A stretch of 64,000 nucleotides of DNA, from contig NZ_BBWV01000004.1 of NCBI RefSeq assembly GCF_000974785.1, forward strand, positions 186,001 to 250,000, read 5' to 3'. The DNA comes from Flavihumibacter petaseus NBRC 106054. Its GTDB lineage: Bacteria > Bacteroidota > Bacteroidia > Chitinophagales > Chitinophagaceae. Made by a program: the position numbers and the translations under genes. The notes under the pieces are model-generated. The model did no database searches, had not been told where the DNA came from, and saw only the letters and a program-made list of their open reading frames with translations. Below, one piece after another: positions 788 through 47,417 of the stretch. Each line of letters begins with the position of its first letter. Position 1 is the first letter of the stretch.

Positions 788-930
788 GGAATGATACCGG
801 ATTGAAGCTGGAATGGTCCTGCAATGGCATTGCAATAGGTATGCGAAATCCGCGGTTGCGTCCACCTGGCATCCCCTTACCAATGAGTTACCATCGAGTT
901 ACCTTTGAGGTGGCATGCAGGTCTGATTGG
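788..930. repeat. 11-bp phased degenerate repeat array, inverted halves (array A)
   Basis: Consecutive 11-bp units start at 788, 799, 810, 821 and 832 with GGAAT/GCAAT-like beginnings. After a transition around 843-875 the units starting at 876, 887 and 898 share a core of TTACC in the same 11-bp phase, roughly the inverse of the left-hand core. TGCAATG and CATTGCA (819-833) form a near-perfect local palindrome. The array fills the rest of the 343-bp gap between the convergent DUF4293 and PhyH genes and ends about at the PhyH stop codon. No open reading frame worth annotating runs through it. Confidence 0.6.
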
Positions 931-937
931 CCCCGGA

Positions 938-1654
938 TCATCTTCTATGGGTGGAAACAGGAACCAGCCTTTCCGACCATTGCAAGGGAGCGGGTAACTC
1001 CTGCCGGCTGAATTCGAGGTGTATGACCCTTCTTCCCTTTTCATTACTGGTGCGGAATGTACCGTGGGCCAACAGAGGTTTCATCAGCATCACACCACCC
1101 GAACTAACCCTGCAGGTAACTGTTTCCGACTGCTGAACCTGATTGCAATCCCGCCTGATCCCGGATAAATGGCTCCCCGGAACAACGTGAAGGGCGCCGT
1201 TCTGTTCATCTGTTTCATCCAGGTGTATGCGCACCGTAATATTATCTTCCAGCAAAGCAACCGGCGGCTGCACTGCGTATTGGTCCTGCTTGACGGTCCA
1301 CGGGCCAAAACCGGTTGCTTCGGCCTTTTCAGCAACGGAGATGGTCAGGTCCTGGTGAAAGGCGACGAACCAGTTGGAAGCAGGCGGTTTGTCGAAGTAG
1401 ATTGACTTCACCAGGAAATATCCTTTGCCGGCCCGGTCCCCGATCAACCGTTTCAATGCAGGGGTAAAAATCAAAGGGATGGCTGCAGGAATTTCCTTCA
1501 GCAATTGCCGGACGGCAAATAATGCAGTTGAACGCCGAAAGGTGGGACGGGAAGATTCCTGCTTTTTCAACAGATTACCAATAGCGGCAATTTCAGCTGG
1601 CGCATAAATACCATTTACAATTTCAAACCCATCCCTTGAAATTTCAGCTTGCAT
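938..1654 (-). CDS. Phytanoyl-CoA dioxygenase (PhyH) family protein
   Basis: The 238-residue product has the layout of Fe(II)/2-oxoglutarate-dependent PhyH-type oxygenases. A metal-binding HQD motif sits in WFVAFHQDLT, a jelly-roll core contains IHLDETDEQNGALHVVPGSH, and a distal histidine lies in LLAHGTF, followed by the Arg of GRRVIHLEF that would bind 2-oxoglutarate. The substrate cannot be told from sequence. The ATG at 1652-1654 is chosen because the domain starts there and the preceding gene ends only 8 bp upstream, suggesting an operon with it; a longer frame to 1750 would overlap that gene. Confidence 0.85.
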   Translation of the reverse strand: MQAEISRDGFEIVNGIYAPAEIAAIGNLLKKQESSRPTFRRSTALFAVRQLLKEIPAAIPLIFTPALKRLIGDRAGKGYFLVKSIYFDKPPASNWFVAFHQDLTISVAEKAEATGFGPWTVKQDQYAVQPPVALLEDNITVRIHLDETDEQNGALHVVPGSHLSGIRRDCNQVQQSETVTCRVSSGGVMLMKPLLAHGTFRTSNEKGRRVIHLEFSRQELPAPLQWSERLVPVSTHRR

Positions 1655-1662
1655 ACAACAAT

Positions 1663-2286
1663 TCAATTGTCGTTGGTTTCCCTGGAGACGCCATACCGGA
1701 TACCTGCGTCTGCAAAAAATTGTTTGATCAGCGCCCATTTCTGATTGCAATCCTCTCCTAAGGTCATCCCATCATGACTACCCCTGAACCTCCTGCATTC
1801 AAAACAGATCTCCAGAAAGGCGATCACCTGCCTGTCTTCTCCCAGGAACAGGATGGCATTTCTGGGATTATAGCACATTTGGACAGACCCGATCGTGTTA
1901 ACACCTTTCGGTACCGTGTAGCCTCCCCTGAATCCGTAATTAACAAGCAGGTCAGACAGCCGTTCAATCTGCCGCAGGGTCAGTGTTTTAATTTCTGAAA
2001 GCTTTGCATAGCAAACGGTGTCTTTTTGCCGCGGAAGACTATCCCTGTATTCGCTACCATCTTCTTTAACACCCGTATGCGGAAAGGAAACCAGTTGAAT
2101 ACTGGTCGCATTATTGAAAGGGAATCGCTTCATCCGTGAAGCAAAGGATAGCGATGGCTTTTTGACACAATCCTGGCTTTTATTGATAAGCGCCTGTTCC
2201 TTCGCAGTTGGTTCCCGACCGGAAGGTTGGCCGGCAACAAAGTAAGGGACTGTCGCCAGCAGAAATAATCCAATGATATTTTTCAT
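1663..2286 (-). CDS. Secreted protein of unknown function
   Basis: This 207-residue protein has a clear signal peptide (MKNIIGLFLLATVPYFVAGQ, cleavage probably after VAG). The mature part contains several cysteines, including a C-F-E-C pair near residue 165 and further Cys at about 121 and 183, so disulfides are plausible in the periplasm. I recognise no domain. It lies 54 bp after uvrA's stop and 8 bp before the PhyH gene on the same strand, so co-transcription with the latter is likely; the pairing gives no functional clue. Confidence 0.7.
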   Translation of the reverse strand: MKNIIGLFLLATVPYFVAGQPSGREPTAKEQALINKSQDCVKKPSLSFASRMKRFPFNNATSIQLVSFPHTGVKEDGSEYRDSLPRQKDTVCYAKLSEIKTLTLRQIERLSDLLVNYGFRGGYTVPKGVNTIGSVQMCYNPRNAILFLGEDRQVIAFLEICFECRRFRGSHDGMTLGEDCNQKWALIKQFFADAGIRYGVSRETNDN

Positions 2287-2313
2287 AGAAACAGGTTATA
2301 TCGATTAAATCAA

Positions 2314-2345
2314 CAACCAAACAACCAAACTACCAAACTACTAAA
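2314..2345. repeat. 8-bp tandem repeat running into the uvrA stop codon
   Basis: Four tandem 8-bp units begin at 2314, 2322, 2330 and 2338: CAACCAAA twice, then CTACCAAA and CTACTAAA. The last unit contains the uvrA stop codon (TAG on the minus strand, 2341-2343). Slippage here could move or remove that stop. Confidence 0.75.
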
Positions 2346-5142
2346 CTCCCAGACTCTTCCCCGTCACACTTCCCTTCGCCTTCACTATACCCGCTGGCAC
2401 ACCCGCATACACCAGGCTTCCACCGCCATCGCCGGCCTCGGGCCCCAGGTCTATCAGCCAGTCTGCGCACCGGATCACATCCGTATTGTGCTCAATCACC
2501 AGGATGGTATGCCCCTGGGCGATCAGTGCATTAAAGGAGGTCAGTAATTTCTTGATGTCGTTAAAATGGAGGCCGGTGGTGGGCTCGTCAAATATGAACA
2601 GGATATGCCCCTGCGCACGGCCTTTGCCCAGAAAGGAAGCCAGTTTAACCCGCTGCGCCTCTCCGCCTGATAATGTATCAGAGGATTGTCCCAGTTTCAC
2701 ATATCCCAACCCCACATCACTGAGTGCGCGGATCTTATTGACAACATCCTTCTCGTCGGCAAAAAACTCAATAGCGTCATCAACACTCATTTCCAGTATA
2801 TCGTAAATGCTTTTCTCGCGGTAGGTCACTTCCAGCACCTCTTCCTTGAATCGCTTGCCGCCGCATACTTCGCAGGTCAGGTGGACGTCTGCCAGGAACT
2901 GCATTTCCACAACCTGTTCGCCTTCTCCCTTACAGGCGTCGCAACGCCCGCCATCCACATTAAAGGAAAAATGTTTGGGTTGAAAACCGCGCATTTTACT
3001 CAGCGGCTGAGACGCGAAAAGATCACGGATCTCATCGTACGCTTTGATATAGGTTACCGGGTTACTCCGGGAAGATTTGCCGATCGGGTTCTGATCCACC
3101 AGTTCAATCTGGGTAATAAAATCGATGTCTCCCTCCACCGAACGATGCAATCCTACCTTTTCCGAACTCACTCCCTTGATTTTTTGAAGGGCGGGATACA
3201 GGATCTGCTTGACAAGGGTTGTCTTGCCACTGCCGCTTACGCCGCTGACCACCGTGAAAATGCCGAGGGGAAATTCAACATCAATATCTTTCAGGTTATG
3301 CTGCCGCGCACCCTTTACTGTAACGGACCGTTTCCAGGGTCTTGGTTTGGCGGGCGGATCGATGGTCAGCTTACCGGAAAGATATTTCCCGGTCAGGCTG
3401 TTCTTGTTGGCGATCAGCTGATCATAGTTTCCCGCTGCAACCACTTCCCCGCCGAGATGGCTGGCCAGTGGCCCCATGTCAATGATATAATCCGCCTCGC
3501 GCATCATCATTTCATCGTGCTCCACCACTACAACGGTGTTGCCCAGGTCACGAAGGTGCTTCAGCACTTTGATGAGGCGGCTGGTGTCGCGGGCATGCAA
3601 TCCGATTGAAGGTTCATCGAGGATATAAAGCGAATTGGTGAGATTGCTTCCCAGGCTGCGGGTCAGCTGAATACGCTGGCTCTCGCCGCCGCTGAGGCTA
3701 TTGGCCAGTCTTGACAAAGTAAGGTAACCTAGCCCCACATCCATGAGCGTACTGATGCGTGTTTCCACCTCCTGGAGGATCCTCTTGGCAACAGTACGGT
3801 CGTAATCGGAAAGTTCCAGTTCACTGAACCAGGTCTGGAGGTCGCGGACGGGCATTTCACAAAGCTCACCGATATGTTTCCCGCCGACTTTTACATAGAG
3901 CGCTTCTTTCCTCAGGCGGTAGCCGTGGCAATCCGGACAGATAGTCCGGCCACGGTAACGTGCCAGTAATACCCTGTACTGCACCTTGTAGAGATTCTGC
4001 TCCACTTCCTTAAAAAAAGCATGAATGCCGAGCGCTGCTCCTGCGCCATCCCAAAGCTGGCGGTATTGTTCTTTGGTGAGGTCGATGATGGCCTTATGGA
4101 TCGGGAAACCGTTGGCTTTGGCAGCTTTGATAAACTGTTCTTTCCACCAGCCAAGCTTCTCACCTTTCCAGGGAGCGATTGCTCCTTCGTAAACGCTTAA
4201 CCGGCGATCAGGGATCACCAGGTCTTCGTCTATTCCAAGCACCTGGGAGAATCCTTCGCAGGTAGGGCAGGCACCGAACGGATTATTAAAAGAAAAAAGA
4301 TTGGGAACCGGTTCTTCAAATACCAGTCCGTCAAGTTCGAAACGATTGCTGAAAGGCAACCATTGCTGCTCGTTGACCAGCAGCTGAATCTCGCCTTCAC
4401 CTTCATAAAATGCGGTACCGACAGAGTCGGCAATCCGGTGAAGGTCATCTTCTTCAAAATCTTTCGCTACGAGGCGGTCGATCAGCAGGTAGGCCTGCTT
4501 TCCTTTTGCCGGTTTCCAGTAGTCACCCTGCGCCATCTGTTGAAGAATATCATCAATGGAAAGTACGCCGCCCTCATACAAGCGGCTGAATCCTTTCTGC
4601 AGGAGAATACTCAGCTCTTCTTCAACCGAACGGTTCTGGTGCTGACGGAATGGAACGAGAATATGGATCTTGTCTCCTTTGGGAAGATTGCGGATCACAT
4701 TCACCACATCCGTGACGTCATCTTTTTTCACCACGCGGCCAGATACCGGTGAGATCGTCTTTCCTGTTCTCGCGTATAATAACCTGAGGTAATCGTAGAT
4801 TTCCGTCATACTCCCCACGGTCGAACGAGGTGTTCGGGTGATCACTTTTTGCTCGATAGCGATCGCGGGGCATAAACCGTGTATATAATCCACATCGGGT
4901 TTGTCCATCCGCGTAAGGAACTGTCGGGCATACGCGCTTAGGCTTTCGGCATAACGCCGTTGTCCTTCTGCAAATAAGGTATCAATTGTTAAAGAAGACT
5001 TGCCGGAACCTGAAACTCCCGTCACCACTACGAGTTTGTTGCGGGGAATACTTACATCAACGTTCTTGAGATTATGCACCCTTGCACCCTTGATAAAAAT
5101 GTCCTGAACCCTGTGCGGTGCGGTAGAAATCGAATTGCTCAT
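2341..5142 (-). CDS. uvrA: Excinuclease ABC subunit UvrA
   Basis: UvrA is the damage-sensing ATPase of nucleotide excision repair; it loads UvrB on damaged DNA. The 933-residue protein has two ABC modules, with Walker A motifs GVSGSGKSS (about 42-50) and GVSGSGKTT (about 630), two LSGGE(S/A)QR signatures, and Walker B/D-loop segments [10 protein letters not shown] and [10 protein letters not shown]. The second zinc module is complete (CDACKGEG and CEVCGGKRF). The first keeps only the CPTCEG pair: the usual preceding CxxC is replaced around [16 protein letters not shown]. Length is normal. It is transcribed divergently from an ECF sigma factor gene with 212 bp between them. Confidence 0.97.
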
Positions 5143-5152
5143 ACTAGTATTA

Positions 5153-5160
5153 CAAAAGTA
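5153..5160 (-). promoter_or_regulatory. Candidate -7 element upstream of uvrA
   Basis: On the minus strand TACTTTTG matches the Bacteroidota -7 consensus TAnnTTTG. It lies only 10 nt before the uvrA ATG, so transcription from it would give an almost leaderless mRNA. No well-spaced TTG at -33 was seen, so this is tentative. Confidence 0.25.
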
Positions 5161-5195
5161 TGAAGGGCGGGTTCAAAAAAAATTTTGGGGAAATA

Positions 5196-5224
5196 TTGTT
5201 TATTAGAAAAATATATTATCTTGG
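5196..5224 (+). promoter_or_regulatory. Candidate promoter for the ECF sigma factor gene
   Basis: TTG (5196-5198) is followed after 18 nt by TATCTTGG (5217-5224), one mismatch from TAnnTTTG. This fits the Bacteroidota primary-sigma promoter pattern and would give a leader of about 125 nt before the ATG at 5355. Confidence 0.35.
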
Positions 5225-5354
5225 TAGTCATAAGCGTCCTAAACGAAAAACCAAAAACTCACGCCTATAGTAATACTACTACTCTTCCCATCGTCTTTTC
5301 CCTAATCCAGTATACCAATATCCATTTTTAAAATTCAAAAAACCGTAGAAGTTT

Positions 5355-5936
5355 ATGAAATCACTCTGCATTAAAACCGACAATGAACTCATCCATCTAT
5401 TTATGGATGGTGACATGAATGCCCTCGAAACTTTGATCCTTCGTCACAAGGACAAACTCTACACTTCCATCCTTTTCCTTGTCAAAGACAAATACCTTGC
5501 CGAAGACATCTTTCAGGATGTTTTAATTAAAATAATTGATACCCTCAGGGGTGGACGTTATACAGAGGAAGGCAAATTCCTTCCCTGGGCAATGCGTATC
5601 GCACATAATCTTTGCGTGGATCATTTCCGTAAAGTAAAGCGTACACCTGCCATCAAAACCAGCGATGAAAGAGACATCTTCGAGGTGATCAATTTCACCG
5701 AAGAAGGTGCTGATGTAAAGATGATGAAAAGACAAAGCCATGACCGCGTTCGCAAGATGCTCGACCTGCTGCCGGAAGACCAGCGCGAGGTGATCATCCT
5801 CCGTCATTATGCAGAACTGAGCTTTAAAGAAATCGCTGCGCTGACCAATTGCAGTATCAATACAGCACTGGGTCGGATGCGTTATGGCCTGATCAACCTG
5901 CGTAAAATGATGTCAGAAAAAAATATTGCACTTTAA
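5355..5936 (+). CDS. RNA polymerase sigma factor, ECF/sigma-70 family
   Basis: The 193-residue protein has a sigma region 2 (about 25-90, with DIFQDVLIKI and AHNLCVDHFRK) and a region 4 helix-turn-helix (about 135-185, LPEDQREVIILRHYAELSFKEIA then CSINTALGRMRYGL). The two DNA-binding domains are joined by a short linker, as in ECF factors. No anti-sigma gene is adjacent, which differs from the second ECF gene in this window at 29.8 kb. It is monocistronic by context, with a strong terminator 145 bp downstream. The regulon is unknown. Confidence 0.9.
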   Translation: MKSLCIKTDNELIHLFMDGDMNALETLILRHKDKLYTSILFLVKDKYLAEDIFQDVLIKIIDTLRGGRYTEEGKFLPWAMRIAHNLCVDHFRKVKRTPAIKTSDERDIFEVINFTEEGADVKMMKRQSHDRVRKMLDLLPEDQREVIILRHYAELSFKEIAALTNCSINTALGRMRYGLINLRKMMSEKNIAL

Positions 5937-6005
5937 CATACAAATTGTCAAGCCACACTGTACTTTTACACTACGAACCGAGCATAACATTACAAGTAAG
6001 ATAAT

Positions 6006-6071
6006 GTCATTCTGCTCCTCCCTCTGACAACTATGATTCGCTTGCCCGTCGGAAGGCTGTTGCAGAATGAC
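6006..6071. repeat. Long-range 10-bp inverted repeat
   Basis: GTCATTCTGC (6006-6015) is the exact reverse complement of GCAGAATGAC (6062-6071), with 46 bp between the arms. These termini resemble those of short dispersed inverted-repeat elements I recall from other genomes (memory only). It lies just before the terminator at 6081 and may be a small non-autonomous repeat element inserted downstream of the sigma gene. Confidence 0.45.
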
Positions 6072-6080
6072 GCCAAATTG

Positions 6081-6110
6081 AAAAAACCCCGCGATGCGGG
6101 GTTTTTTTCT
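6081..6110. terminator. Bidirectional intrinsic terminator between sigma factor and dsbD
   Basis: AACCCCGC and GCGGGGTT form a GC-rich 8-bp stem with a GAT loop. The stem is bounded by an A-run on the left and a T-run on the right. It can therefore end the plus-strand sigma transcript and the minus-strand dsbD transcript, which converge here. Confidence 0.9.
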
Positions 6111-6111
6111 T

Positions 6112-6239
6112 GCTTCAATCATGCTAAAAAATTGCTTTATCCTTGCTTTAACCTTGCTTTAAACCGGCTTTATCCCTATAAGAACCTTGCTTCCAAAGCA
6201 AGGTTAAAGCAACTATGAAGGAGTTTTAAAGCCTGGTTA
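6112..6239. repeat. 11-bp phased degenerate repeat array, inverted halves (array B)
   Basis: Forward units start at 6112, 6123, 6134, 6145, 6156, 6167, 6178 and 6189, nearly all beginning GCTT, with consensus GCTTTAACCTT. Inverse units start at 6196, 6207, 6218 and 6229, nearly all beginning AAG, with consensus AAGCAAGGTTA. The halves meet in a strong hairpin: AACCTTGCTT (6183-6192) against AAGCAAGGTT (6196-6205), loop of three. The array lies between the bidirectional terminator and the dsbD stop, so it would be in the 3' untranslated part of the dsbD mRNA. Confidence 0.75.
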
Positions 6240-6253
6240 AGGACCCGCCGGAA

Positions 6254-8224
6254 CTACCGGTTAGCTGTTTTCTTCCCCAGGCCGCAACGCAGCCATTCAG
6301 CATAAGCTTTTGCATCGGGCATATAACCCACAGGCTGGTTCAACAGTTTCTCGTCAGGAGAAACGATGGCATATAACGGTTGAGAAGCATTACGGAAGTT
6401 CTCCGTCTGGAAATTCAGGTACCGGTCTCCGACAGTTTTGATTTCCACTGGCTTACCTGCTTTATTGGTATACAGGAACTGCTGGGCATCCGGTAATGCC
6501 TTACGGTCATCAACATATAAAGACACCAGTACAAAATCTCTTTCGATCAGTTCCTTTACTTCGGGTTGCGTCCACACATTCTCCTCCATTTTGCGGCAGT
6601 TCACACAGGCCCAGCCGGTAAAATCCACCAGGATCGGTTTGCCGGTCTGGCGGGACAATTCCAGGGCTTTTTCATAGTCGTTAACCACATGTGACGATTC
6701 CTTTGCATATACGCTGTAGGTCAGCGGTGGCGGAAAGCCGCTCACCAGCGCCCGGTTGGCATAAGGTGTATTGGTCAGCCCGGGAACGAGGTATAGGCCG
6801 AACAGCAGGAATGCAGTGGCCAGCGCCAGCCTTCCTTTACTCAGTTTGGGCGGCGGCGGATCGTGCCTGAACTTCAGTATTCCGAACAGGTAGAGGCTGG
6901 TTGCCAGGGCGATCAGGATCCACAAGCCAAAAAACACTTCCCGTTTCAGCAGTCCCCAGTGTTTTACCAGGTCTGCATTGGAAAGAAACTTGATCATCAG
7001 GGCAAGTTCCACAAAGGCAAAAACGATCTTAACGGTATTCATCCAGCTGCCGGAACGCGGCAGGCGGGAAAGCCACTGCGGGAACAAAGCGAACAGGCCA
7101 AAGGGAAGCCCCAGGGCAATACCAAATCCCGACATGGCAACTGTCAGCTGCATCGCTCCGCCGTCACGGTTAAGCGCTCCCACCAGAAGGGTACCCAGGA
7201 TGGGTCCCGTGCAGGAAAACGATACAATGGCCAGCGTCAGTGCCATAAAAAAGATCCCGCCGGTGGTTCGCATGTTCGACTTCTCATCCACTTTATTCGT
7301 CATGCTGCTCGGTAGTGCGATTTCAAACAGTCCGAAAAACGACAGCGCGAACACAAAGAAGACTGCCGCGAAAAAGAGGTTGAGCCAGGCGTTGGTGGAA
7401 ATATTGTTCAGGATGCCCTCATTGCCGGCATCCAGGAAATAAAAAGGCACACTGAGCAGCACATAGATCAGGAAAATAAAGAAGCCATAGAGAAAGGCAT
7501 TGCGGATCCCCTGTTGCCTGCTCTGTGCCCGCTTGGTGAAAAAGCTCACGGTGAGCGGGATCATCGGAAAGGTACAGGGCATGATCAGACCGATCAGTCC
7601 GCCCAGGAATCCCAGGGCAAAAATTGACCAGATACTTTTGTGTTCTGCTTTTTCGCCACCGGTTCCGCCACAGTCTGACACAGGATTGTCCATATCAATA
7701 GCGGGGCGGTGGATGGAAGCGGCAGCGGCCTGATCGCCGGAAAGTGTAGTGGCCATAGTGGTCAGTTCCCCTTTGTCATTCAGGGAAAATCTGAAAGGAA
7801 CGGGTTCCGGTCCGACTATTTCATCTCCGCGAAGCGCCATAAACCAGACATTGCCTGAAACATTCTGTCCGGGCTTCAGGCCGCTCACCGGAATTTCCCA
7901 CTGAACGGACTGCTCAAAAAAGCGAAGCCTGGCATTATCGAAGAGCGGTTCCGGCTTCTCCTGGAGGTTGCCGGATTCAGTTGTCTTTCCAGACTGACCG
8001 CTGAAAGAAGAGTCCAGTATTATGCGCGTATTGGGCTGGTCGTCTGGCGCGGTAACAGAATATACTTTCCAGCCCTGCCGGATAGCGGCATTCAATTCGA
8101 TCACCCAGCCTTCTGCTGCCTGGCGGGATTTTCCTGTCAGTTGTATTACCGGTAAACTATCCTGCGCAAAACCAATGACCGTGAAGGCCATGGCAAGTAG
8201 CGCCATCCCAATTTTTTTCAGCAT
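6254..8224 (-). CDS. dsbD: Thiol:disulfide interchange protein DsbD
   Basis: DsbD carries electrons from cytoplasmic thioredoxin across the inner membrane to periplasmic partners. The 656-residue protein has a signal peptide (1-20), an N-terminal beta-sandwich domain (about 25-150), a CcdA-like membrane domain of about eight segments (about 200-490) and a C-terminal thioredoxin domain with WACVNCRKM (C540, C543). Both membrane cysteines are present (C217 in [11 protein letters not shown]338 in [10 protein letters not shown]). The N-terminal domain lacks the redox pair, with Leu131 and Ile136 where cysteines are expected. A separate DsbD-N protein with the pair is encoded 3 bp upstream, and the two probably work together. 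Confidence 0.93.
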
Positions 8225-8227
8225 GGA

Positions 8228-8680: not shown

Positions 8681-8740
8681 TTCCCAAATTTGGGTGAAAT
8701 TCTTCTAATGTTATGGTAAAAATGACCCCTAAACCGCCAG

Positions 8741-9400: not shown

Positions 9401-9486
9401 GAGCGGGGGTTGAAAAATTTAGCGCAAAGGTCCATCAAAAACTCAAGATTAAAAAGTGAAAATGGCCCTTGCCGGCCGGAGGGGCA

Positions 9487-10467: not shown

Positions 10468-10477
10468 ATCAATCGGT

Positions 10478-36965: not shown

Positions 36966-36979
36966 GTAATTTGAGGAGT

Positions 36980-39900: not shown

Positions 39901-40771
39901 TTTTATTCAGATGCGCACCGGAGCAGGAAAGTTATCCGGCTATGAAATGATCCGGCTCGATAATGATACCGCCTGGAAAATCAGTCGCCTGGAACTGGAC
40001 CGGCTGAATTTGTTGGTGGAGCGGGACAAGAGGTTTCCGACAGACAGCGTGCGTTTTCGTCCACTGCTCTCCGGAAGCCTGCTGCATATCCCGCTGCCGG
40101 TTGCTGTCAACCGCATTGATCTGACCCACGGCAATATCCGATATAACGAGATCAGTGAAAAGAACGGGCGGGAGGGTCATATTTTCTTTTCCGACCTGCA
40201 GGGATCAGTAAGGCAGGTGCGCAACTATGGTATCCAGCCCGAGGATAGCCTGCGGATCAATGTCCGTTCCAAACTGATGGGGCGGGGTGATCTCCGCGTT
40301 TCGTTTGCCGAATCCTATACGGACAGCCTAAGAGGATTTTACTTATTTGCCACGATGGGCCGGATGAATTTTGATGCGCTTTCCCCCCTGCTGCTGCCAA
40401 TGTTCAACCTGCGCATCAACAGGGGATTTGTAGATACACTGACGCTTCGTGTGAAGGCAAACGACTACATTGCTTTCGGTAACATGCAGATGCAGTACCA
40501 GCATCTAAACTTCAGCCTGCTGCGCGAAGACGGCAAAAAAAGAGGTTTCCTGAGCCGCGTGGCCAATACTTTTGTGCGCACCAACAATCAAAAGACGGGA
40601 AGGATCTTCAGGGAAAGGTTGCGCAACAAATCGACATTCAACTATTGGGGCAAGATCGCATTAAGCGGACTGCTGACCAATATGGGTGTGCAACGCAATA
40701 AGAAAATGGATAAAAAGTACCGGCGTGAAATGTCTAACCTTCATCTTCCGGAGACGCTGTTGCAGGAATGA
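36980..40771 (+). CDS. AsmA-like very large single-pass envelope protein
   Basis: The 1263-residue product has one N-terminal membrane helix (about 9-30, LKKFVLILMAVLFLGFILSIG) and then over 1200 residues of repetitive beta-strand sequence with alternating hydrophobic residues, resembling AsmA/TamB-type lipid-transfer proteins (weak, by style only). Such proteins bridge the periplasm and help outer-membrane lipid delivery; that role here is inference. The ATG at 36980 is chosen because it starts the membrane helix. The last 38 bp overlap the 3' end of the convergent glycerate kinase gene. Confidence 0.7.
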   Translation: MTWQRLKKFVLILMAVLFLGFILSIGLFIRLQSVAAVKQIVSTLSNDQYAFDATSIRVDPIHLLVKVKGLRVGPTHPGDKNNEFELRADAITLKISEVFRLIFQKQLRVDECTLVNPALTMKVYEKDSTRRQKEVVPLHHQVAKMQEIFFKVLQSLQVQKFQLINGAVAFYPDFNANRSRYFLNHINLSIKDLHLVKRIEEWDNKNRVAIRFELLHPTINYPDSTIVVQLESMLWDSRERKFDMNGLGFHKQLLEKGDSSGFRLEGIELDSLNWNRLLMEGKVELGALKASRGYFSSNDFNLKRNRDSSVDKPKSNLLEVIGPILIRNLTISEIDFTGNTHTRRGKESLSINGEHFFVKNLVIDKNLPHKVELDELQLKVKAFLESDSNRTFQSGFNELSISKNNLVLKDYFLHSLRPSSFGENKIDVRELSLVGLSINDLINGKLKARALVLTDPVIRVVLAKGKAKKSDFNWQQIRRQLSKKMEIGILRINNAKAYVNQAGRKTPYVSTDSFYAVISSSSLLRSRSLEELFGGENSISMPRLAIRHPNLWVDCRNATYINQDFTADAAVGGTTDGNMRFKLRNVRANDINTAGIIEGSDSTLLRVLEIGSGDFYLRLKDNPNKKNGEPSRDSRFVRTIHSGKVQLHIEGRGMDIRSIADTLVLEKLHRINGQWTWDSLLLAGRNLRFTKPRLRGTAGQFLLSNFRESQIRNAQWELDTDQLTANLQLPDVQFRTGINNTQQILEAFREVNLKHPGINLLLKNSGGGHSAAKNNKPIELPVFRLTDPVITIRKEDSSGITKLAALEDGQITINTISLQGKRISTKGLSLDLRKIATHRDKFDLQIPELELVTGPIAIDAREPIHTVLEKLRVTGGRFNMQNENKKIALNQLNIRLEKSFRINTSPDSLKKLLSSLPHLHLTAAELLYEKADRTLDMHGLKVESTDKEIAFDSLSWTSNLSRDSFFKAAGVQKDFIQMRTGAGKLSGYEMIRLDNDTAWKISRLELDRLNLLVERDKRFPTDSVRFRPLLSGSLLHIPLPVAVNRIDLTHGNIRYNEISEKNGREGHIFFSDLQGSVRQVRNYGIQPEDSLRINVRSKLMGRGDLRVSFAESYTDSLRGFYLFATMGRMNFDALSPLLLPMFNLRINRGFVDTLTLRVKANDYIAFGNMQMQYQHLNFSLLREDGKKRGFLSRVANTFVRTNNQKTGRIFRERLRNKSTFNYWGKIALSGLLTNMGVQRNKKMDKKYRREMSNLHLPETLLQE

Positions 40772-42065
40772 GTATCATCACATCCATCACATTCGTTAAA
40801 GTAGGGCCTGTTTTCACCAGGCCGCCTGTTTGTTCAAAGAACGCATAGGCATCATTGTTATCGAGGAAGGGCTGGGGATCCGGTCCTGTATTGCTGACCT
40901 GCTGCAACCAGCCGGCATCGATTGAAGCGCCCGCGGCGTCAGTGGGTCCGTCTGTTCCGTCAGTTCCTGCACACAACAATGCAGGACAGGGAAGATCCGG
41001 ATGCAGCATCAGGTGATTGACTGCTGCCAGAACGAATTCCTGGTTGCGGCCGCCTTTTCCCCTGCCCTTCACCGTTACTGTCGTTTCACCGCCGGCGAGG
41101 TAACAGACACCTTCACGTTTTGTTGCCGCGGAAAGTTGTGTAAGCAGCTGAACACTTATCTCCCGCGCTTCGCCGGAAAGCGGAACAGGATGGATAATGG
41201 CCCTGTAACCCAGCTGCTCCGCAGACAACGCCGCAGCTTCCAGTGCCATCCGGTTGTTACCGATGATGGTATTGCGCACCCTCTCGAAGGCGGGGTCGCC
41301 GGGCTTGGGTGTTTCCGGTATCCCACCATTTAATCCTTTGTTCAGGTATTCCTGCAGGGAAGCCGGCAGTCGCCAGTCACCAATAAACTTTTGCAGGATG
41401 CTTTCTGCCTGTTGCCAGGTAGTTGGATCCGGCACCGTCAGGCCACTTGCAATTACAGCAAGATCATCGTCAGGAACATCGCTGATGATCAGACTATGCA
41501 ACTTCGCAGGCTGGGCAAGTACAGCCAGTCTTCCCCCTTTTAACAGGGAGAAATGTTTTCGAACTGTATTTAAGACATCAATCGGAGCGCCGTTACGGAG
41601 GAGGGTGTTGGTCAGCTCCCGCCAGTCGGCTAAAGGAATTGTATCAGGCAGATCTGCAAGTAACGCAGAGGCGCCACCGCTGATCATTACCAGCAGCAGG
41701 TCTTCTTCTTTTGCGTTCCGAACAAAATCATTCACCCTTTGGGCAGCGGCTACACTTCTTTCATCAGGAAGGGGATGCCCCCCATCATACACAGGCCAGG
41801 GCAACAACTCCAGTTGATGTCCTTCCTTGGTGATCACGAGCGCTTCTGAGATCCTTCCGCCGAGAACTGCAAAAGAAGCAGCCGCCATTGCTGTCGCTGC
41901 CTTGCCGACAGACAACATCCTGATACGGCCGATAGTATTGACGGCATATTTTTCGTCTGCAACAACAATAAATTCATCGTTCGCACTGATCCATTGTGAT
42001 ATCAATGACGAAGGCTGAACAGCTGTGCAGGCAGCCTGAAATATAACAGCCAGATCCTTTCTCAT
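40734..42065 (-). CDS. Glycerate 2-kinase, MOFRL/DUF4147 family
   Basis: The 443-residue protein has the two-domain GckA/TtuD-type layout: DUF4147 N-terminal domain with VGKAATAMAAA and MISGGASALLADLPD, and a C-terminal MOFRL domain with GRGKGGRNQEFVLAAV and CAGTDGTDGPTDAAGA. The enzyme phosphorylates D-glycerate to 2-phosphoglycerate, feeding it to lower glycolysis. The start at 42065 trims a non-homologous extension. It is divergent from the FadN-like gene (89 bp apart) and overlaps the AsmA-like gene by 38 bp at its 3' end. Confidence 0.92.
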   Translation of the reverse strand: MRKDLAVIFQAACTAVQPSSLISQWISANDEFIVVADEKYAVNTIGRIRMLSVGKAATAMAAASFAVLGGRISEALVITKEGHQLELLPWPVYDGGHPLPDERSVAAAQRVNDFVRNAKEEDLLLVMISGGASALLADLPDTIPLADWRELTNTLLRNGAPIDVLNTVRKHFSLLKGGRLAVLAQPAKLHSLIISDVPDDDLAVIASGLTVPDPTTWQQAESILQKFIGDWRLPASLQEYLNKGLNGGIPETPKPGDPAFERVRNTIIGNNRMALEAAALSAEQLGYRAIIHPVPLSGEAREISVQLLTQLSAATKREGVCYLAGGETTVTVKGRGKGGRNQEFVLAAVNHLMLHPDLPCPALLCAGTDGTDGPTDAAGASIDAGWLQQVSNTGPDPQPFLDNNDAYAFFEQTGGLVKTGPTLTNVMDVMILIPATASPEDEG

Positions 42066-42116
42066 CTTGTAAACGAATATCTGAGGAAATATCAAATTTC
42101 CTTACCTTCGGTTAGA

Positions 42117-42136
42117 TTAGTTGTTTAGCTAACTAA
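42117..42136. promoter_or_regulatory. Candidate palindromic operator upstream of the FadN-like gene
   Basis: A 20-bp imperfect palindrome has arms TTAGTT and AACTAA around an 8-bp centre containing TA, with a smaller TTAGCTAA palindrome inside. A -7-like TACCTTCG (42103-42110) precedes it, so the palindrome would sit at about +1 to +20, a typical repressor position. TetR-family regulators often control beta-oxidation genes through such sites; no regulator gene is adjacent. Confidence 0.4.
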
Positions 42137-42154
42137 TTTAACGCGTACAGTCAT

Positions 42155-44533
42155 ATGAAAAGAACGATCAGGAAAGTTGCCGTTTTGGGCAGTGGCGTGA
42201 TGGGTTCCCGTATTGCCTGCCATTTTGCAGGCGTCGGCCTCCAGGTTTTGTTACTCGACATGGTTCCTAAGGAAGCTGCAGCGGTACAGGACAAGTTGCT
42301 CCGGAACAAGCTGGTTAATGACGCTTTGCAGGCAGCTATTAAAAGTAACCCCTCCCCCCTGTATACCAAAGATGCGGCGAAACGCATCCGCACCGGCAAT
42401 TTCACCGACGACATGAAAGCGATATCGGGCTGTGACTGGATCATAGAAGTAGTGGTAGAAAGGCTGGACATCAAAAAAATGATTTTCGACCAGGTGGAAG
42501 AACACCGCAAGCCGGGCACGCTGGTCAGTTCCAATACATCAGGTATTCCCATTCACCTGATGGCGGAAGGCAGGTCTGAGGATTTCAGAAAGCATTTCTG
42601 CGGAACACATTTTTTTAACCCGCCGCGATACCTCCGGCTGCTGGAGGTTATTCCAACTGCAGATACTGATCCGGAAGTAGTTAATTTCTTCCTGGAATAC
42701 GGCAGCTTGCAATTGGGCAAGACGACAGTGCTTTGCAAAGACACGCCGGCCTTTATCGCCAATCGTATTGGTGTATATGGCATCATGTCCATCTTCCGGC
42801 TGATCGACGAGTTGCAGTTGACAATAGATGATGTGGATGCGCTCACCGGGCCGGTGATCGGACGTCCCAAATCGGCAACCTTCCGTACGGCGGATATTGT
42901 CGGTATCGACACACTCGTAAAAGTGGCGCAGGGCGTTGCAGCGAATTGTCCGGCTGACGAGCAGAAAGATATATTTCAGCCACCTGTCTGGCTGAGTAAG
43001 ATGGTGGGAGATAACTGGCTGGGAGACAAAACCGGTCAGGGATTTTTCAGGAAAAGCAAAAGTGCAACCGGTGAAAAAGAGATCCTTACCCTGAATCTGA
43101 AAACAGGCGAATACGCTCCGCGCCAGAAACCCCGTTTCGCTACCCTCGAAACAGCCAAACCGGTTGACGACCTGAAAACAAGGCTTGGCATGGTGGTGCA
43201 GGGCACCGACAAAGCAGGTGAATTTTACCGGCTATTCCACTATGGCCTTTTCTCTTATATCTCCCATCGCATTCCGGAAATTGCAGATGAACTGTATCGT
43301 ATCGATGATGCTATGATGGCCGGCTTTGGCTGGGAAATCGGCGCCTTTGAAAGCTGGGATGTGCTGAATGTCGGCAAGACAACGGAAAAGATGAAAGCTG
43401 CTGGATTTACAGTGGCACCCTGGGTGGATGAAATGCTGGCCGCCGGAATAAAAAGTTTTTATACCGTACAGAATGGCAAGCGACTGTTTTACGATATAGC
43501 ATCAAAAAGTTATCGTCCCATACCCGGCGCAGATGCTTTTATTGTGATGAAGAACTTCGAAGGGGAAACAGTCTGGAAAAACAGTGCCTGTCGCACTTAT
43601 CACCTGGGCGACGATGTATTGGGATTGGAATGGTACACCAAAATGGGAAGTATCGGCGGGGAAGTACTGGAAGGAATACAGAAATCGATTTTACTTGCTG
43701 AAGATAAATACAAGGGACTCGTTATTGCCAATGATACAACGAATTTCAGTGCCGGGGCCAACGTGGGAATGATCTTCATGTTTGCGATCGAACAGGAGTA
43801 TGACGAACTGGATATGGCGATTAGGCAATTCCAGCAGACTATGACGCGGGCGCGTTTTTCTGCTGTTCCGGTAGTGGTGGCGCCCCATGCACTGGCATTG
43901 GGCGGCGCCTGCGAACTCACACTGCATTCGGACAGGGCCTGCGCTGCTGCCGAAACTTATATCGGGCTCGTTGAACTTGGCGTAGGATTGATTCCCGGCG
44001 GTGGAGGCACCAAGGAATTTACGTTGCGTGCGGCTGATGAAATGCACGAAGACGAACCCGAAACAATCACTTTAAAAAACCGCTTCCTTACCATTGCAAC
44101 TGCGAAAGTGGCCACGTCTGCACACGAAGCCTTTGAACTGGGCATCCTGCGGAAAGGGCATGATGAAGTTGTGTTCAACCAGGGCCGACGCATTACCGAA
44201 GCGAAAAAATCAGTAATTGAACTTTACGACAGCGGGTATATCTCACCGGTAGTAAGGCAGGACATCAAAGTGTTGGGACGTTCTGCACTTGGCGCGTTGT
44301 TGACCGGCATCAACGGTATGTGGCGTGCCAACTATGCAACCGATCATGATGCCCTGGTTGCCAGGAAACTGGCTTACGTCATGTGTGGTGGCGATCTCAG
44401 CGAACCTACACTGGTGTCGGAGCAATACCTGCTGGATCTTGAAAGAGAAGCTTTCCTGTCGCTTTGCGGGGAGAAAAAAACCCTGGAGCGTATCCAGAGC
44501 GTTTTAAAAAGCGGAAAACCTATTCGCAACTGA
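42155..44533 (+). CDS. fadN: 3-hydroxyacyl-CoA dehydrogenase / enoyl-CoA hydratase fusion (FadN-like)
   Basis: This 792-residue protein catalyses the hydratase and dehydrogenase steps of fatty-acid beta-oxidation. Domain order is dehydrogenase first: the NAD-binding motif VLGSGVMGS (10-18) and GTHFFNPPRYLRLLEVIP, then two 3HCDH C-terminal domains (about 190-440), then a crotonase domain (about 500-690) with GGACELTLHSDRA and VELGVGLIPGGGGTKE, where the two Glu are the expected acid/base residues. This order and length match Bacillus FadN, not E. coli FadB/FadJ. The thiolase gene that usually accompanies it is absent here. The ABC ATPase gene starts 1 bp after its stop. Confidence 0.93.
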   Translation: MKRTIRKVAVLGSGVMGSRIACHFAGVGLQVLLLDMVPKEAAAVQDKLLRNKLVNDALQAAIKSNPSPLYTKDAAKRIRTGNFTDDMKAISGCDWIIEVVVERLDIKKMIFDQVEEHRKPGTLVSSNTSGIPIHLMAEGRSEDFRKHFCGTHFFNPPRYLRLLEVIPTADTDPEVVNFFLEYGSLQLGKTTVLCKDTPAFIANRIGVYGIMSIFRLIDELQLTIDDVDALTGPVIGRPKSATFRTADIVGIDTLVKVAQGVAANCPADEQKDIFQPPVWLSKMVGDNWLGDKTGQGFFRKSKSATGEKEILTLNLKTGEYAPRQKPRFATLETAKPVDDLKTRLGMVVQGTDKAGEFYRLFHYGLFSYISHRIPEIADELYRIDDAMMAGFGWEIGAFESWDVLNVGKTTEKMKAAGFTVAPWVDEMLAAGIKSFYTVQNGKRLFYDIASKSYRPIPGADAFIVMKNFEGETVWKNSACRTYHLGDDVLGLEWYTKMGSIGGEVLEGIQKSILLAEDKYKGLVIANDTTNFSAGANVGMIFMFAIEQEYDELDMAIRQFQQTMTRARFSAVPVVVAPHALALGGACELTLHSDRACAAAETYIGLVELGVGLIPGGGGTKEFTLRAADEMHEDEPETITLKNRFLTIATAKVATSAHEAFELGILRKGHDEVVFNQGRRITEAKKSVIELYDSGYISPVVRQDIKVLGRSALGALLTGINGMWRANYATDHDALVARKLAYVMCGGDLSEPTLVSEQYLLDLEREAFLSLCGEKKTLERIQSVLKSGKPIRN

Positions 44534-44534
44534 T

Positions 44535-45440
44535 ATGAATCCGTCACCCATCCTGGAACTGCAACAGGTCAGCAAATCCTATGGCCGCATAAAGGCGCTG
44601 AAGGCTATCGACCTGTGCATTCCGCCGGGGTCTGTATTCGGTATTTTGGGACCGAACGGCAGCGGCAAAACAACGTTGCTTAGCATCGTTCTTGATGTAC
44701 TCGCAGCCGACAAAGGCCGATATCTGTGGTTCGGGCAGGAAGGCGGGCCGGAAGTGCGCCGGAAGATTGGCTCCCTGCTGGAAACACCCAACTTCTATCA
44801 CTACCTCTCCGGTGAAGATAACCTCCGCGTCACCAGCAGTATCAGCGGTCGCGGACAGTCGCCGGAAGCCATTACCAAAGCGCTGCAGATCGTAAAGCTT
44901 GAAGAACGCCGTAAGAGCCGTTTTAGCACCTACAGTCTCGGTATGAAGCAGCGCCTGGCCATCGCCGCAGCGTTGCTTGGTGATCCCGCGGTGCTGGTAT
45001 TTGACGAGCCTACCAATGGCCTTGATCCTGTTGGGATAGCAGAGATCAGGGAACTAATACGGCAATTGCATGCTGCCGGACACACGATCATCATGGCCAG
45101 CCATCTGCTTGACGAAGTGGAAAAAGTCTGCAGCCATATGGCCATTCTTAAATCGGGACAAATCATCACAACCGGCTCGGTGGAAGAAGTACTAGCCGAC
45201 GAAGATATCGTGGAAGTATCCGCTGCCGACAACACGCAGCTTGCAGCTATACTGGATCATACTTCCGGTCTGAAGCGCCTCGAGAAAGAGCAGCAGGTAT
45301 TGCTGCTGTATTTCGAAAAGGGAATGGCGGATCCGGCAAAGATCAACCAGCTTGCCTGGGAGCGTGGTATCACACTAAAACACCTGTCAGTCCGCAAAAA
45401 AAGACTGGAGACCCGATTCTTTGAACTCACCAACAACTGA
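44535..45440 (+). CDS. ABC transporter ATP-binding protein
   Basis: The 301-residue ATPase has Walker A GPNGSGKTT (about 39-47), the signature YSLGMKQRL, Walker B VLVFDEPTNGLDP and the switch His in MASHLLDEVEKV. It has an additional C-terminal domain of about 80 residues, as in bacitracin-resistance or Nod-type exporters. It pairs with the permease gene that starts 1 bp downstream. The stop of the beta-oxidation gene is one base upstream, so transcription is shared; a link in function is not evident. Confidence 0.95.
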   Translation: MNPSPILELQQVSKSYGRIKALKAIDLCIPPGSVFGILGPNGSGKTTLLSIVLDVLAADKGRYLWFGQEGGPEVRRKIGSLLETPNFYHYLSGEDNLRVTSSISGRGQSPEAITKALQIVKLEERRKSRFSTYSLGMKQRLAIAAALLGDPAVLVFDEPTNGLDPVGIAEIRELIRQLHAAGHTIIMASHLLDEVEKVCSHMAILKSGQIITTGSVEEVLADEDIVEVSAADNTQLAAILDHTSGLKRLEKEQQVLLLYFEKGMADPAKINQLAWERGITLKHLSVRKKRLETRFFELTNN

Positions 45441-45441
45441 C

Positions 45442-46263
45442 ATGCGTAAACTGCTTTGGACCGAATGGTTGAAAATGCGCCGGTATCCTGCCTTCTGGCT
45501 GATGCTCGCGATCTGTATCCTGAGTTATCCCGGAATCAATTTTATCTTTCTCAGCATTTACCAGGATATTACTAAAAAAGACAGCATGGCCGCACAGGTA
45601 ACGGGAATGTTGTTGGGTGAACCCTTTTCTTTTCCTGAAGCCTGGCATACCATTGCATATTTTTCAAGCTGGTTCATCTTCATTCCTTCCATCCTGGTGA
45701 TCATGATCATCACCAATGAGTTCACCTACCGGACACATCGTCAGAACATCATTGACGGCTGGAGCAGGAAAGCATTCATAACAGCCAAGGCGCTTGATGT
45801 AATCCTGATTTCCCTGTTGCTGACGTTTATTTATTTCCTGGTGGCGCTGGTCATTGGCAACCAGAACAGTCCCGCTGATATTGCAGGCAAATGGTCCCAA
45901 ATGCAATATGCCGGTCTTTTTGCGCTGCAAACAACTTCACAGTTGTCACTTGCCTTCCTGACGGGTTTGCTGGTACGGAAAGCATTTATCGCAATGGGTC
46001 TTTTCCTTTTTTACGGCGTGATCTTCGAACCCGTGCTGGTTGGGTTATTCAAATACAAATGGTTCAAAAATGACATCGGCAGGTTTTTCCCTATGGAAAT
46101 TTCAGACCGTATCCTGACACCTCCGGCATTTATGATGCGATTCGATGAAAAAGCATTTGTAGCTGCCCAAAAAGCTGTCCCCTTTCACATAGCACTTTCA
46201 ATCGGCTTGTTGTTGCTGACCTGGGCGCTCATTTTTCTGATCTACCGGAAGCGGGACCTGTAA
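45442..46263 (+). CDS. ABC transporter permease, ABC-2 type
   Basis: The 273-residue protein has six membrane segments typical of ABC-2/NatB-type permeases, including WLMLAICILSYPGINF near the N-terminus and LSIGLLLLTWALIFLIY at the end, with a charged first loop. Together with the ATPase at 44535 it forms a likely exporter; substrate unknown. ATG 45442 is used; TTG 45421 would overlap the ATPase gene. Its 3' end overlaps the convergent epimerase gene by 35 bp. Confidence 0.88.
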   Translation: MRKLLWTEWLKMRRYPAFWLMLAICILSYPGINFIFLSIYQDITKKDSMAAQVTGMLLGEPFSFPEAWHTIAYFSSWFIFIPSILVIMIITNEFTYRTHRQNIIDGWSRKAFITAKALDVILISLLLTFIYFLVALVIGNQNSPADIAGKWSQMQYAGLFALQTTSQLSLAFLTGLLVRKAFIAMGLFLFYGVIFEPVLVGLFKYKWFKNDIGRFFPMEISDRILTPPAFMMRFDEKAFVAAQKAVPFHIALSIGLLLLTWALIFLIYRKRDL

Positions 46264-47188
46264 GATCGGTCAGCGCCTGTTTTATTTCAGGAAACCGGAA
46301 GACAAAACCGGCACCTGACAACTTTGCCGGACTGACAGTGCAGCTTTTCAGCACTTCGATACTCATTTCTCCCAGCACCAGTTTCAACACAAAAGAGGGA
46401 ATATGGAGCGGAAGAAAGAATCGTCCTCGTTGCAGTTTTGCTAATGTTAGGATGAGTTCGCGATTGGTTACGCATTGTTCCGTGACGGCGTTGTAGACAC
46501 CGTTGAACTGGGTATCTGAAAGTGCGGCACCGAACAGGCGGACAAGATCATCGATGTGAATCCAGCTGATCCGCTGATTTCCTTTGCCCAGGATCGCGCC
46601 GAGGCCGAACCGCAATGGTTTTTTGAATTCGGGCAATGCGCCGCCGGACGATGATAATACGATTCCAATTCTGAAAATAACCAGTCTTTTCCCCTGTGCG
46701 GCTGCTGGCCGAATAGATGCTTCCCAATCCCGGCAGGTAAATCCGAGAAAATCATTTTCCACAGGGTCGCTTTCCCGGAAAGGCCGGGTATTCGGAATGA
46801 CAGGATCAGGGCCGTACCAGCCGATGGCCGAAGCGCTGACAATGGTATCCACCTTATTGGGAATTTCTTTCAGGGCCCGGCAAATCAATTCACCCGCAAG
46901 GACGCGGCTGTTGCGGATCAGTCTTTTACGGGAGGGGGTCCAACGTTTTCCGGCAATATTGGCGCCGGCAAGGTGTACGATGTGATCGGCAGTGGAAATC
47001 GCTTCAGGATCAATGAACTGCTCATCCGGATTCCAGCGGTAGTAATGTATCCTTTCTCCCTCACCGGCAGGTTTGCGGGTACCGGATTTCCGGCTGAGGA
47101 TATTGATGGAATGTCCTTTTTCCAGCAGCCGCCGGGTTAGTGCCTGACCGATCATGCCGGTTCCTCCCGTAATGAGAATCGTTGCCAT
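46229..47188 (-). CDS. TIGR01777-type NAD-dependent epimerase/SDR protein
   Basis: The 319-residue product has an N-terminal Rossmann fold with ITGGTGMIGQALTRRLLEKG and a C-terminal DUF1731 segment (HIPSFVLKLVLGEMSIEVL then the SPAKL motif), as in TIGR01777/YfcH/SDR39U1 proteins. Substrate unknown. The ATG at 47188 puts the Rossmann motif at residues 5-15; the longer frame to 47224 is not needed. It is the first minus-strand gene downstream of the dcw cluster and is separated from ftsZ by a terminator and an 11-bp array. Confidence 0.93.
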   Translation of the reverse strand: MATILITGGTGMIGQALTRRLLEKGHSINILSRKSGTRKPAGEGERIHYYRWNPDEQFIDPEAISTADHIVHLAGANIAGKRWTPSRKRLIRNSRVLAGELICRALKEIPNKVDTIVSASAIGWYGPDPVIPNTRPFRESDPVENDFLGFTCRDWEASIRPAAAQGKRLVIFRIGIVLSSSGGALPEFKKPLRFGLGAILGKGNQRISWIHIDDLVRLFGAALSDTQFNGVYNAVTEQCVTNRELILTLAKLQRGRFFLPLHIPSFVLKLVLGEMSIEVLKSCTVSPAKLSGAGFVFRFPEIKQALTDLTGPASGRSEK

Positions 47189-47285
47189 ACTGAAAGTTAC
47201 GAAGGGTTTGCCATCCTGAAACAACAGCCTGGTTATCAGACAAGTATCATTAAACGCAACAATAACATTTCTCTGAAATCAGCAT

Positions 47286-47417
47286 CCAGCCTGCATTACA
47301 GGCTCAAACCAGGTACCAACCATGTTCCATATAAGTGCCGACCATAGGCAAAGTACCCTTTTTGCACATGGTTTGAACATGGTCTGCGCCTGGTCGGAAC
47401 CTGGTTGGCCAGGAGTT
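47286..47417. repeat. 11-bp phased degenerate repeat array, inverted halves (array C)
   Basis: Units start every 11 bp from 47286 to 47407. Those at 47308, 47319 and 47341 begin ACC(A)T/AGG; after 47352 the units at 47363, 47374, 47385 and 47396 carry the inverse core (A/C)TGGT(C/T) in constant phase. AGCCTG (47288-47293) and CAGGCT (47299-47304) give a perfect 6-bp hairpin at the left edge. The array lies between the ftsZ terminator and the epimerase promoter region, so it is outside both genes. No open reading frame is credible here. Confidence 0.7.

Follow-up and report, generated by a model that had tools for sequence, protein, structure and literature searches.

Dispersed Intergenic Arrays With an 11-bp Step in Flavihumibacter petaseus and Relatives: Possible Phased Sites for a DNA-Binding Protein

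Introduction

The 64,000-nt stretch of Flavihumibacter petaseus NBRC 106054 analyzed in this study (contig NZ_BBWV01000004.1, positions 186,001 to 250,000; hereafter the window) contains three gene-free stretches above 300 bp when its main open reading frames (ORFs) are taken as borders, namely 595-937 (343 bp), 5937-6253 (317 bp) and 47189-47517 (329 bp), and in each of them degenerate units follow one another at an 11-bp step. What are these arrays, and at which level is their step kept? We followed them through the window's own genome (G000, 5.69 Mb; other G labels denote relative genomes and L labels loci) and through related bacteria. The results showed that phased intergenic arrays are a real class in part of the Chitinophagaceae and a variant of dispersed intergenic repeats. 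The 11-bp step is the firm result, and a protein that reads it is our proposal.

Phased Arrays in the Window

A self-identity scan of the window with sliding 120-nt windows at lags 7 to 33 gave three outliers at lag 11, and the next best place reached 48/120. The arrays at these outliers are as follows.

Array 1, positions 781 to 937, no strand: about 14 degenerate 11-bp units by eye; lag-11 peak 68/120 at 781.
Array 2, positions 6117 to 6238, no strand: 11-bp units of the TTGCTTTAACC type, then reverse-complement units GGTTAAAGCAA, about 5 + 5 by eye; lag-11 peak 66/120 at 6101.
Array 3, positions 47299 to 47411, no strand: ACCAACCATG-type units, an A/T-rich centre and CATGGTTTGAA-type units in the opposite orientation; lag-11 peak 63/120 at 47280.
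Centre of array 3, positions 47347 to 47365, no strand: GGCAAAGTACCCTTTTTGC, taken from the sequence.

Identity at lag 22 was raised at arrays 1, 2 and 3 and at lag 33 at arrays 2 and 3, and neighbouring lags were not raised. The original prediction for this DNA, that each gene-free stretch above 300 bp carries a run with an 11-bp step, was therefore borne out. Because the units are degenerate, Tandem Repeats Finder picked up only short pieces of the arrays; in array 1 these were 784-805 and 877-903, both with period 11.

Each array had also been described as a long inverted repeat. This holds for array 2, with arms of 44 nt that are 80% complementary, and for array 3, with arms of 40 nt that are 70% complementary, but array 1 is weakly inverted. 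Array 1 has a weak ATGGT-like core with an inverted second half and extends to the stop codon of gene 938-1750 on the minus strand. An inverted-repeat search found none across it, and the share of complementary letters was 0.392 for its best inverted phase class versus 0.336 for its best same-orientation class. The inverted value of 0.392 was reached in 0/500 shuffles of array 1, a lenient null, since shuffling destroys the periodicity too.

Excess Over Chance in the Genome

The window's own genome was sampled in 40 stretches of 20 kb, and the six with a strong array 2 match were excluded from the count. The counted sample thus comprised 34 stretches (680 kb), 10 of them away from array 2 matches and 24 near such matches on the same contigs. 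A period-11 score combined over lags 11, 22 and 33 reached 40 or more at 10 places and 32 or more at 16 places, whereas Markov simulations of 680 kb gave 0 places at either threshold in each of three runs. At a score of 40 or more, the periods 7, 8, 10, 13, 14, 16, 17, 19, 20 and 23 gave 0-2 places each, period 22 gave 3 (doubled units), and the codon-related periods 9, 12, 15, 18 and 21 gave 0-3. ORFs above 150 aa cover 83% of the bases, yet contained 0/16 of the period-11 places with a score of 32 or more; a list of 34 own places made at threshold 28, for which the window and the six ascertained stretches were counted too, had 6 inside ORFs called at 90 aa. Extrapolation from 16 places in 680 kb gives on the order of 130 such places per genome.

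The arrays are thus real and recurrent genome-wide. AT-rich loci of other Bacteroidota did give weak period-11 matches (score up to 38), with similar numbers at other periods, as a chance or low-complexity artefact would; the arrays score 40-110 at period 11, the Markov simulations of 680 kb gave none at 32 or more, and we consider the probability of this explanation negligible. A wider lag-11 scan had been named as the way to refute the prediction; run on 680 kb of the 5.69-Mb genome, it found an excess and did not refute it. The claim that the arrays are one family stands in the sense of a shared architecture, with an excess over chance in the wider genome sample and recurrence in relatives.

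Step, Words and Core of the Arrays

When the arrays are laid out 11 letters to a row, many of them begin with two to about ten units one way, followed by a centre and units the other way; loci such as L336, L018 and L235 had no matching second half by the tests used. Six other places in G000 match the TTGCTTTAACC word of array 2, and array 3 has one further strong match there, at C22:1372314. Other unit words in this genome include GTCTGCCGTTC, GAGGTAAATCC, GTGTAGTTCGG, TAGGGTCACCT, TAGCCGTCCTA and more, and these unrelated words share the 11-bp step. Centres recur within a family, as does GCGTAAAATGGCCTGTTTTAGC in G013 and G012; an A/T-flanked centre like that of array 3 was found in locus L037, and the G013 family has a comparable one.

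The step was counted between successive units found by similarity to the family word (at least 7 of 11 letters), with steps of 9-16 bp considered. It was 11 in 389/406 unit steps, a count in which near-palindromic units enter on both strands and the steps are not all independent. By family, the counts were 134/134 in G011, 49/52 in G013/G012, 108/112 in G014, 56/62 in G029 and 42/46 in G000. Core spacing by regular expression was likewise 11 in 69/71 cases in G011 and 26/26 in G013/G012, and mixed in G014, G002, G001 and G006 (22, 23, 33, 34 and others), where, in our reading, alternate units and the centre differ. The 7-bp core GTCWGAC of the G011 family was identical in 10/10 distinct 40-mers from 19 loci, the extraction requiring two central cores and leaving the two outer cores free. 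The 4-bp linkers between these cores vary, mostly by transitions. In the TTGCTTTA family of G000, columns 1-8 were informative and columns 9-11 much less so.

Distribution in Relatives

In the same genus, 100 kb per genome was scanned at a period-11 threshold of 30, at which some places are marginal. We found three places in G013, two each in G011 and G001, one each in G003 and G014, and none in G007, G012 and G009; the threshold misses short arrays, as G012 has a clear array by lag 11 alone. At the same threshold, 0/4 genomes from other genera of the family or order had any period-11 place. The G013 word CATGTGCCAAC was present in 4/15 genus genomes, with seven places in G013. Similarity searches with a G014 array gave at least 57 matches in G014 (among the best 40 of 93 candidates) and at least 28 in G002 (among the best 40 of 81), and a G011 array gave at least 81 matches in G011 (among the best 40 of 65 candidates), with the two strands of one element counted apart.

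Among named relatives, 80 loci contained two strong arrays, with scores of 69 and 74, both labelled Chitinophaga (L235 and L241). The L241 family has 12 places in its own genome and no match in the five other genomes searched. Five period-11 places were found in 160 kb of Chitinophaga sp. S165, and none in 140 kb of Chitinophaga niastensis (L332, L341-L346). These arrays are accordingly a class of dispersed intergenic elements in one Chitinophagaceae genus and in Chitinophaga, with species-typical words. The dispersal and these words, like the length changes in orthologous arrays described below, go beyond the original prediction.

Two other repeats were observed in these genomes. The 140 kb of C. 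niastensis contained 8 period-7 places with a score of 42 or more, that is, another fixed step in a sister species. In G011 (L054), a TTTCACCCGTCGGGTGGAGA-like repeat with steps of about 21 bp lies 3' of a dsbD-like gene.

Turnover at Orthologous Slots

The neighbours of the three arrays in the window, with their Pfam families, and two hairpins beside the arrays are as follows; array 1 sits between convergent genes.

Positions 169 to 594, plus strand: DUF4293 gene, left of array 1 (PF14126).
Positions 938 to 1750, minus strand: phytanoyl-CoA dioxygenase-like gene, right of array 1 (PF05721).
Positions 5355 to 5936, plus strand: sigma-70 family factor gene, on one side of array 2 (PF04542, PF08281).
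Positions 6254 to 8224, minus strand: DsbD-like gene, on the other side of array 2 (PF02683, PF13899).
Positions 46229 to 47188, minus strand: NAD-dependent epimerase / DUF1731 gene, with array 3 upstream of its start (PF01370, PF08338).
Positions 47518 to 49467, minus strand: ftsZ, on one side of array 3 (PF00091, PF12327).
Positions 6081 to 6107, no strand: intrinsic-terminator-like hairpin adjoining array 2, 12-nt arms 100% complementary.
Positions 47431 to 47454, minus strand: intrinsic-terminator-like hairpin downstream of ftsZ, with array 3 beyond it, as read from the letters.

The dsbD-like gene was read in 14 genomes and keeps its sigma-factor neighbour in six. At this slot array 2 stands in G000, and an array with a different word, of about 13 units by eye, in G008. 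No array is present in G001, G007, G012 or G013, and the first two have a terminator-like hairpin there. At the ftsZ-epimerase slot, 14 relatives were matched, and 5/5 of those read (G014, G009, G003, G001, G013) have the same terminator and no array. Four slots carry arrays common to G014 and G002, whose dsbD regions are 79% identical in DNA. The orthologous arrays differ in length, for example by a 22-nt gap in L185/L192, and two G002 arrays have a 12-bp step by eye. Whole-unit length change therefore occurs, and other length changes occur too. Arm lengths also vary by copy in G013, for example 10+3 and 3+7 units by eye.

Such turnover is what non-functional or selfish dispersed repeats, similar to miniature inverted-repeat transposable elements (MITEs) or repetitive extragenic palindromes (REPs), would produce. 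On this explanation the step was inherited from one ancestor, slippage and template switching homogenise the units, and the word drifts. The dispersed intergenic copies (several to tens per genome), the empty ftsZ and dsbD-sigma slots, the different family in G008, the changes of array and arm length, the larger duplications that carry arrays and the prevalence of transitions in the G011 linkers all agree with it. However, unrelated words in one genome keep the step despite strong substitution divergence, where unconstrained 1-bp indels would be expected to break the phase more often. In addition, no transposase candidate was found, Y1, the sole transposase type searched, being absent from G000, G011 and G013. 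We regard a selfish origin as plausible but on the whole doubtful.

Several observations accompany these slots. A 1.27-kb duplication in G000 (L029:7909-9180 and L044:12636-13901, 90% identical) ends in an array, which indicates that arrays also travel in larger duplications; the L044 copy is flanked by a piece that resembles the 3' end of the gene next to the L039 array, read as ribF from its translation. In G013, a 957-bp repeat in L147 and L150, 95% identical, adjoins two arrays and carries a short gene. A separate hairpin, GTCATTCTG ... CAGAATGAC, stands at window positions 6006-6071 between the sigma-factor gene and array 2, and the corresponding slot of G001, G007, G008 and G012 retains its sequence, that of G013 a part of it. 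With its CGTC end, the hairpin may be a REP of the CGTC type. Finally, a period-8 tandem run of AACTACCA in 5.5 copies was seen at window positions 2312-2355, near the stop-codon end of a UvrA-like gene (2341-5142, minus strand).

Pairing of the Arms

Eleven base pairs are about one turn of an A-form helix, and the original prediction had proposed that a transcript of each array would form a long A-form hairpin with a face repeated at every turn; such an RNA element would act at mRNA 3' ends. Folding of the window's arrays gave a divided answer, as arrays 2 and 3 folded better than shuffles (z-scores on the two strands of -5.7/-3.2 and -3.5/-3.9) and array 1 did not (+0.9/-0.0). Beyond the window, an ungapped hairpin above shuffles was found in 82/111 array regions and not in the other 29/111. 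The 34 own places at threshold 28 mixed hairpins with non-hairpins, with z-scores from -7.6 to +1.5, and the control gaps (70 of 91 folded) ranged from -3.5 to +1.6.

Gene context was similarly mixed. Gene ends converged on 30/53 callable copies in G011, G014, G002, G001, G013 and G006 (8/61 lay inside ORFs) versus 31/177 background gaps, the background being from G000 only, as an element of mRNA 3' ends would predict. The own arrays were not clearly rich in convergent positions (7 convergent, 18 tandem, 3 divergent and 6 inside ORFs, n = 34), 6/10 of the G029 copies lay in divergent gaps, and array 3 lies beyond the ftsZ terminator.

A hairpin under selection should show compensation between its arms, which had been named as expected support for the prediction. 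In 65 hairpins, the complementarity of the outer arms was 0.420 in register versus 0.415/0.407 one unit off, 0.38 two units out and 0.23-0.28 off phase, and in-register pairing beat the best one-unit shift in 18 hairpins and lost in 36. The G011 linkers did not covary above shuffles, in a pair count that mixes 2+2 and 3+2 elements and may hide some pairing; clean 2+2 rows contain both GTG/CAC and GCG/CGC linker pairs. Arrays in tandem context folded better in sense in 20/41 cases and in antisense in 21/41, and GU versus AC mismatches in array hairpins numbered 118 versus 98. The arm register, the pair counts, the strand bias and the mismatch type thus gave no support for a selected RNA hairpin, and neither the A-form hairpin nor the compensatory changes of the prediction were upheld. 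The best single case for a selected hairpin is L339:10290-10410 of Chitinophaga sp. S165, a near-perfect palindrome with 49/50 pairs, in which the units shift gradually outward yet stay paired; it looks compensated.

Since folding has no strand bias and the arms show no unit-for-unit compensation, the evidence points to DNA rather than RNA, and an RNA-level element seems improbable to us. We conclude that the arms are complementary mostly because direct repeats face each other, and that it is at the DNA level that the step is maintained.

Two further RNA-related candidates were rejected. Rfam gave 0 matches in the window and just 2 tRNAs in five array-bearing relative loci; the named RNA families are accordingly set aside, in keeping with the original prediction, which named no described class with these properties. 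Because a strict terminator-like hairpin was present within 170 bp in only 4/19 G011 copies, the G011 arrays are not simply intrinsic terminators.

Discussion

Our preferred explanation, which we put forward tentatively, is that the arrays are DNA-level helically phased sites for a head-to-tail DNA-binding protein and have spread as REP-like repeats. An element typically has two arrays, each a head-to-tail series of 11-bp units, which face each other with a short centre between them. Where the families are resolved best, about 7-8 bp of the unit form a conserved core and the other 3-4 bases are freer, with one core per turn; because core and freer bases repeat once per turn, the cores lie on one face of the DNA helix. 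A small DNA-binding protein could then use each array as a landing strip, its subunits assembling head to tail at one per turn, from both sides. The step would be held because neighbouring subunits touch, and the word that they read could differ between lineages and sub-families. Copies disperse within a genome, and the length of arrays changes, in many cases by whole units. In the original prediction, a helically phased protein site had been the DNA-level alternative, and it fits better than the RNA hairpin, with a protein that we infer from the arrays; such a protein may also act on neighbouring genes or on chromosome organisation.

Several results weigh against phased protein sites. At the laxer score of 32, the 16 places at period 11 were close to the 14 at period 15 and the 11 at period 12, with 8 at period 8. 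Steps of 9, 10, 12, 13, 15 and 16 bp made up 17/406, and two of the four orthologous pairs had a length difference that 11 does not divide (10 nt in L189/L180; net 54 nt between anchors in L175/L194). The split into core and linker was clear in two of five families only (G011 and the G000 TTGCTTTA family) and not in G013 or G029, and the clustering of conserved columns over 56 arrays was mild, about 2.8 standard deviations above permutation. Inner arms form near-perfect palindromes in several sub-families, a feature not required by a one-sided protein array. Gene context varies by genome, being convergent-rich in G011 and G014 and divergent for the majority of the G029 copies. Lastly, no cognate protein was identified, and the neighbours checked with Pfam (7 window proteins and 10 G029 proteins) had no common theme.

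A shared gene theme next to the G029 arrays was considered in its own right and rejected, as none emerged from the 10 neighbour proteins, of which 7 have a Pfam family. One of these ten neighbours, at L319:635-1330, is an OmpR/PhoB-type response regulator (PF00072, PF00486) that adjoins an array, a single case, though of the regulator type known to read 7+4 bp repeats.

A more general possibility, unlikely though conceivable, is that the class is set by a rule and not by a sequence, so that any 11-bp word would keep the one-turn step and usually the facing halves, and lineages would rewrite the word at tens of loci. If so, a helix-measuring protein or copying enzyme would be at work, with a word specificity that evolves fast together with its genomic sites, and the arrays would be a chromosomal counterpart of fast-evolving centromere or hotspot DNA.

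These explanations differ in what they would mean. If a protein assembles once per turn on the facing arrays, it would be a new component of chromosome organisation or of the control of gene ends in a large family of bacteria, and its sites would be tens to perhaps a hundred intergenic places. If the arrays are selfish, they would be a dispersed repeat without a REP-associated tyrosine transposase (RAYT) in several hosts, with a growth mode that counts 11 bases. If the step is indeed held while the sequence turns over, the family would escape ordinary sequence searches across species and be visible by its period alone. Either way, because the arrays are also present in a named strain, Chitinophaga sp. 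S165, they offer a concrete testable system.

Comparison With Known Systems

Among the matches listed in our literature search, which largely left subscription papers outside, no 11-bp phased inverted intergenic arrays in Bacteroidota were described. A phage origin was rejected: in three scans of viral contigs for array patterns, the matches numbered 0, 2 and 1, and each match was a run of 2-3 units without facing halves. The G011 core resembles a Neisseria-type DNA uptake word; copy number and array form differ. MITEs are non-coding and dispersed and have inverted symmetry, features which the arrays share, as well as their absence at some orthologous slots. In contrast to MITEs, the arms of the arrays are internally periodic and vary in unit number. 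Centromeres of the ParR-parC type, as on plasmid R1, also consist of 11-bp direct repeats in two groups. The arrays differ from them in having many copies and many words per genome, and those of the window adjoin ordinary genes; by Pfam, the neighbours of the three window arrays are genes other than ParR/ParM, although no search aimed at ParR was made.

Head-to-tail operators resemble the arrays in structure. According to the available part of PMC4832192, the OmpR/PhoB-type regulator PhoP recognises 7-bp motifs that are directly repeated and separated by a 4-bp spacer, and according to that of PMC5859096, BldC binds direct repeats as cooperative multimers. The arrays share the direct repeats with both and the 11-bp step with PhoP operators, the G011 family having a 7-bp core and a 4-bp linker, and a fixed step of nearly one turn characterises 389/406 of their unit steps. 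They differ from the operators as described there in their two facing halves, in having up to about 13 units, and in their many copies, for which the genes checked revealed no neighbour function in common.

REPs, bacterial interspersed mosaic elements (BIMEs) and REP doublets forming hairpins (REPINs) resemble the arrays in spread. As far as the available parts of PMC2817692 and PMC3733652 describe them, they too are dispersed, intergenic, often palindromic and species-typical, with tens of copies per genome. The arrays might accordingly be known REPs or BIMEs, of the GTAG or CGTC type, whose movement depends on RAYT (Y1) transposases. They are similar to these in copy number, in lying between genes and in being specific to a species (PMC2817692; PMC3733652, available parts), CGTC occurs within the G011 units, and the array-bearing G014 and G008 each have one Y1_Tnp (PF01797) match above the Pfam cut-off, among weak matches in 4/15 genus genomes. 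However, Y1_Tnp gave no match in G000, G011 and G013 and none in 11/15 genus genomes. The CGTC of G011 lies inside the repeated, paired core of every unit and not in an unpaired end tag, and, by inspection, CGTC is missing from the array 2 word of G000 and from the G013 and G029 words. In addition, '11 bp' occurs 0 times in the available main text of PMC3733652. RAYT-moved REPs are thus very unlikely and were set aside on the Y1 transposases absent from G000, G011 and G013, despite the matches above cut-off in G014 and G008.

The arrays do resemble REPs and BIMEs as repeats dispersed between genes in tens to hundreds of copies, although the G013 word has seven places only in G013, and inspection of their copies revealed no short palindrome with an unpaired GTAG or CGTC end tag. 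In place of the 20-40 bp palindrome with such a tag (PMC2817692; PMC3733652, available parts), they are built from 11-bp units whose number varies and which mostly form two facing arrays, and their unit word differs from one sub-family of a genome to another. In distribution, REPs are the closest known system.

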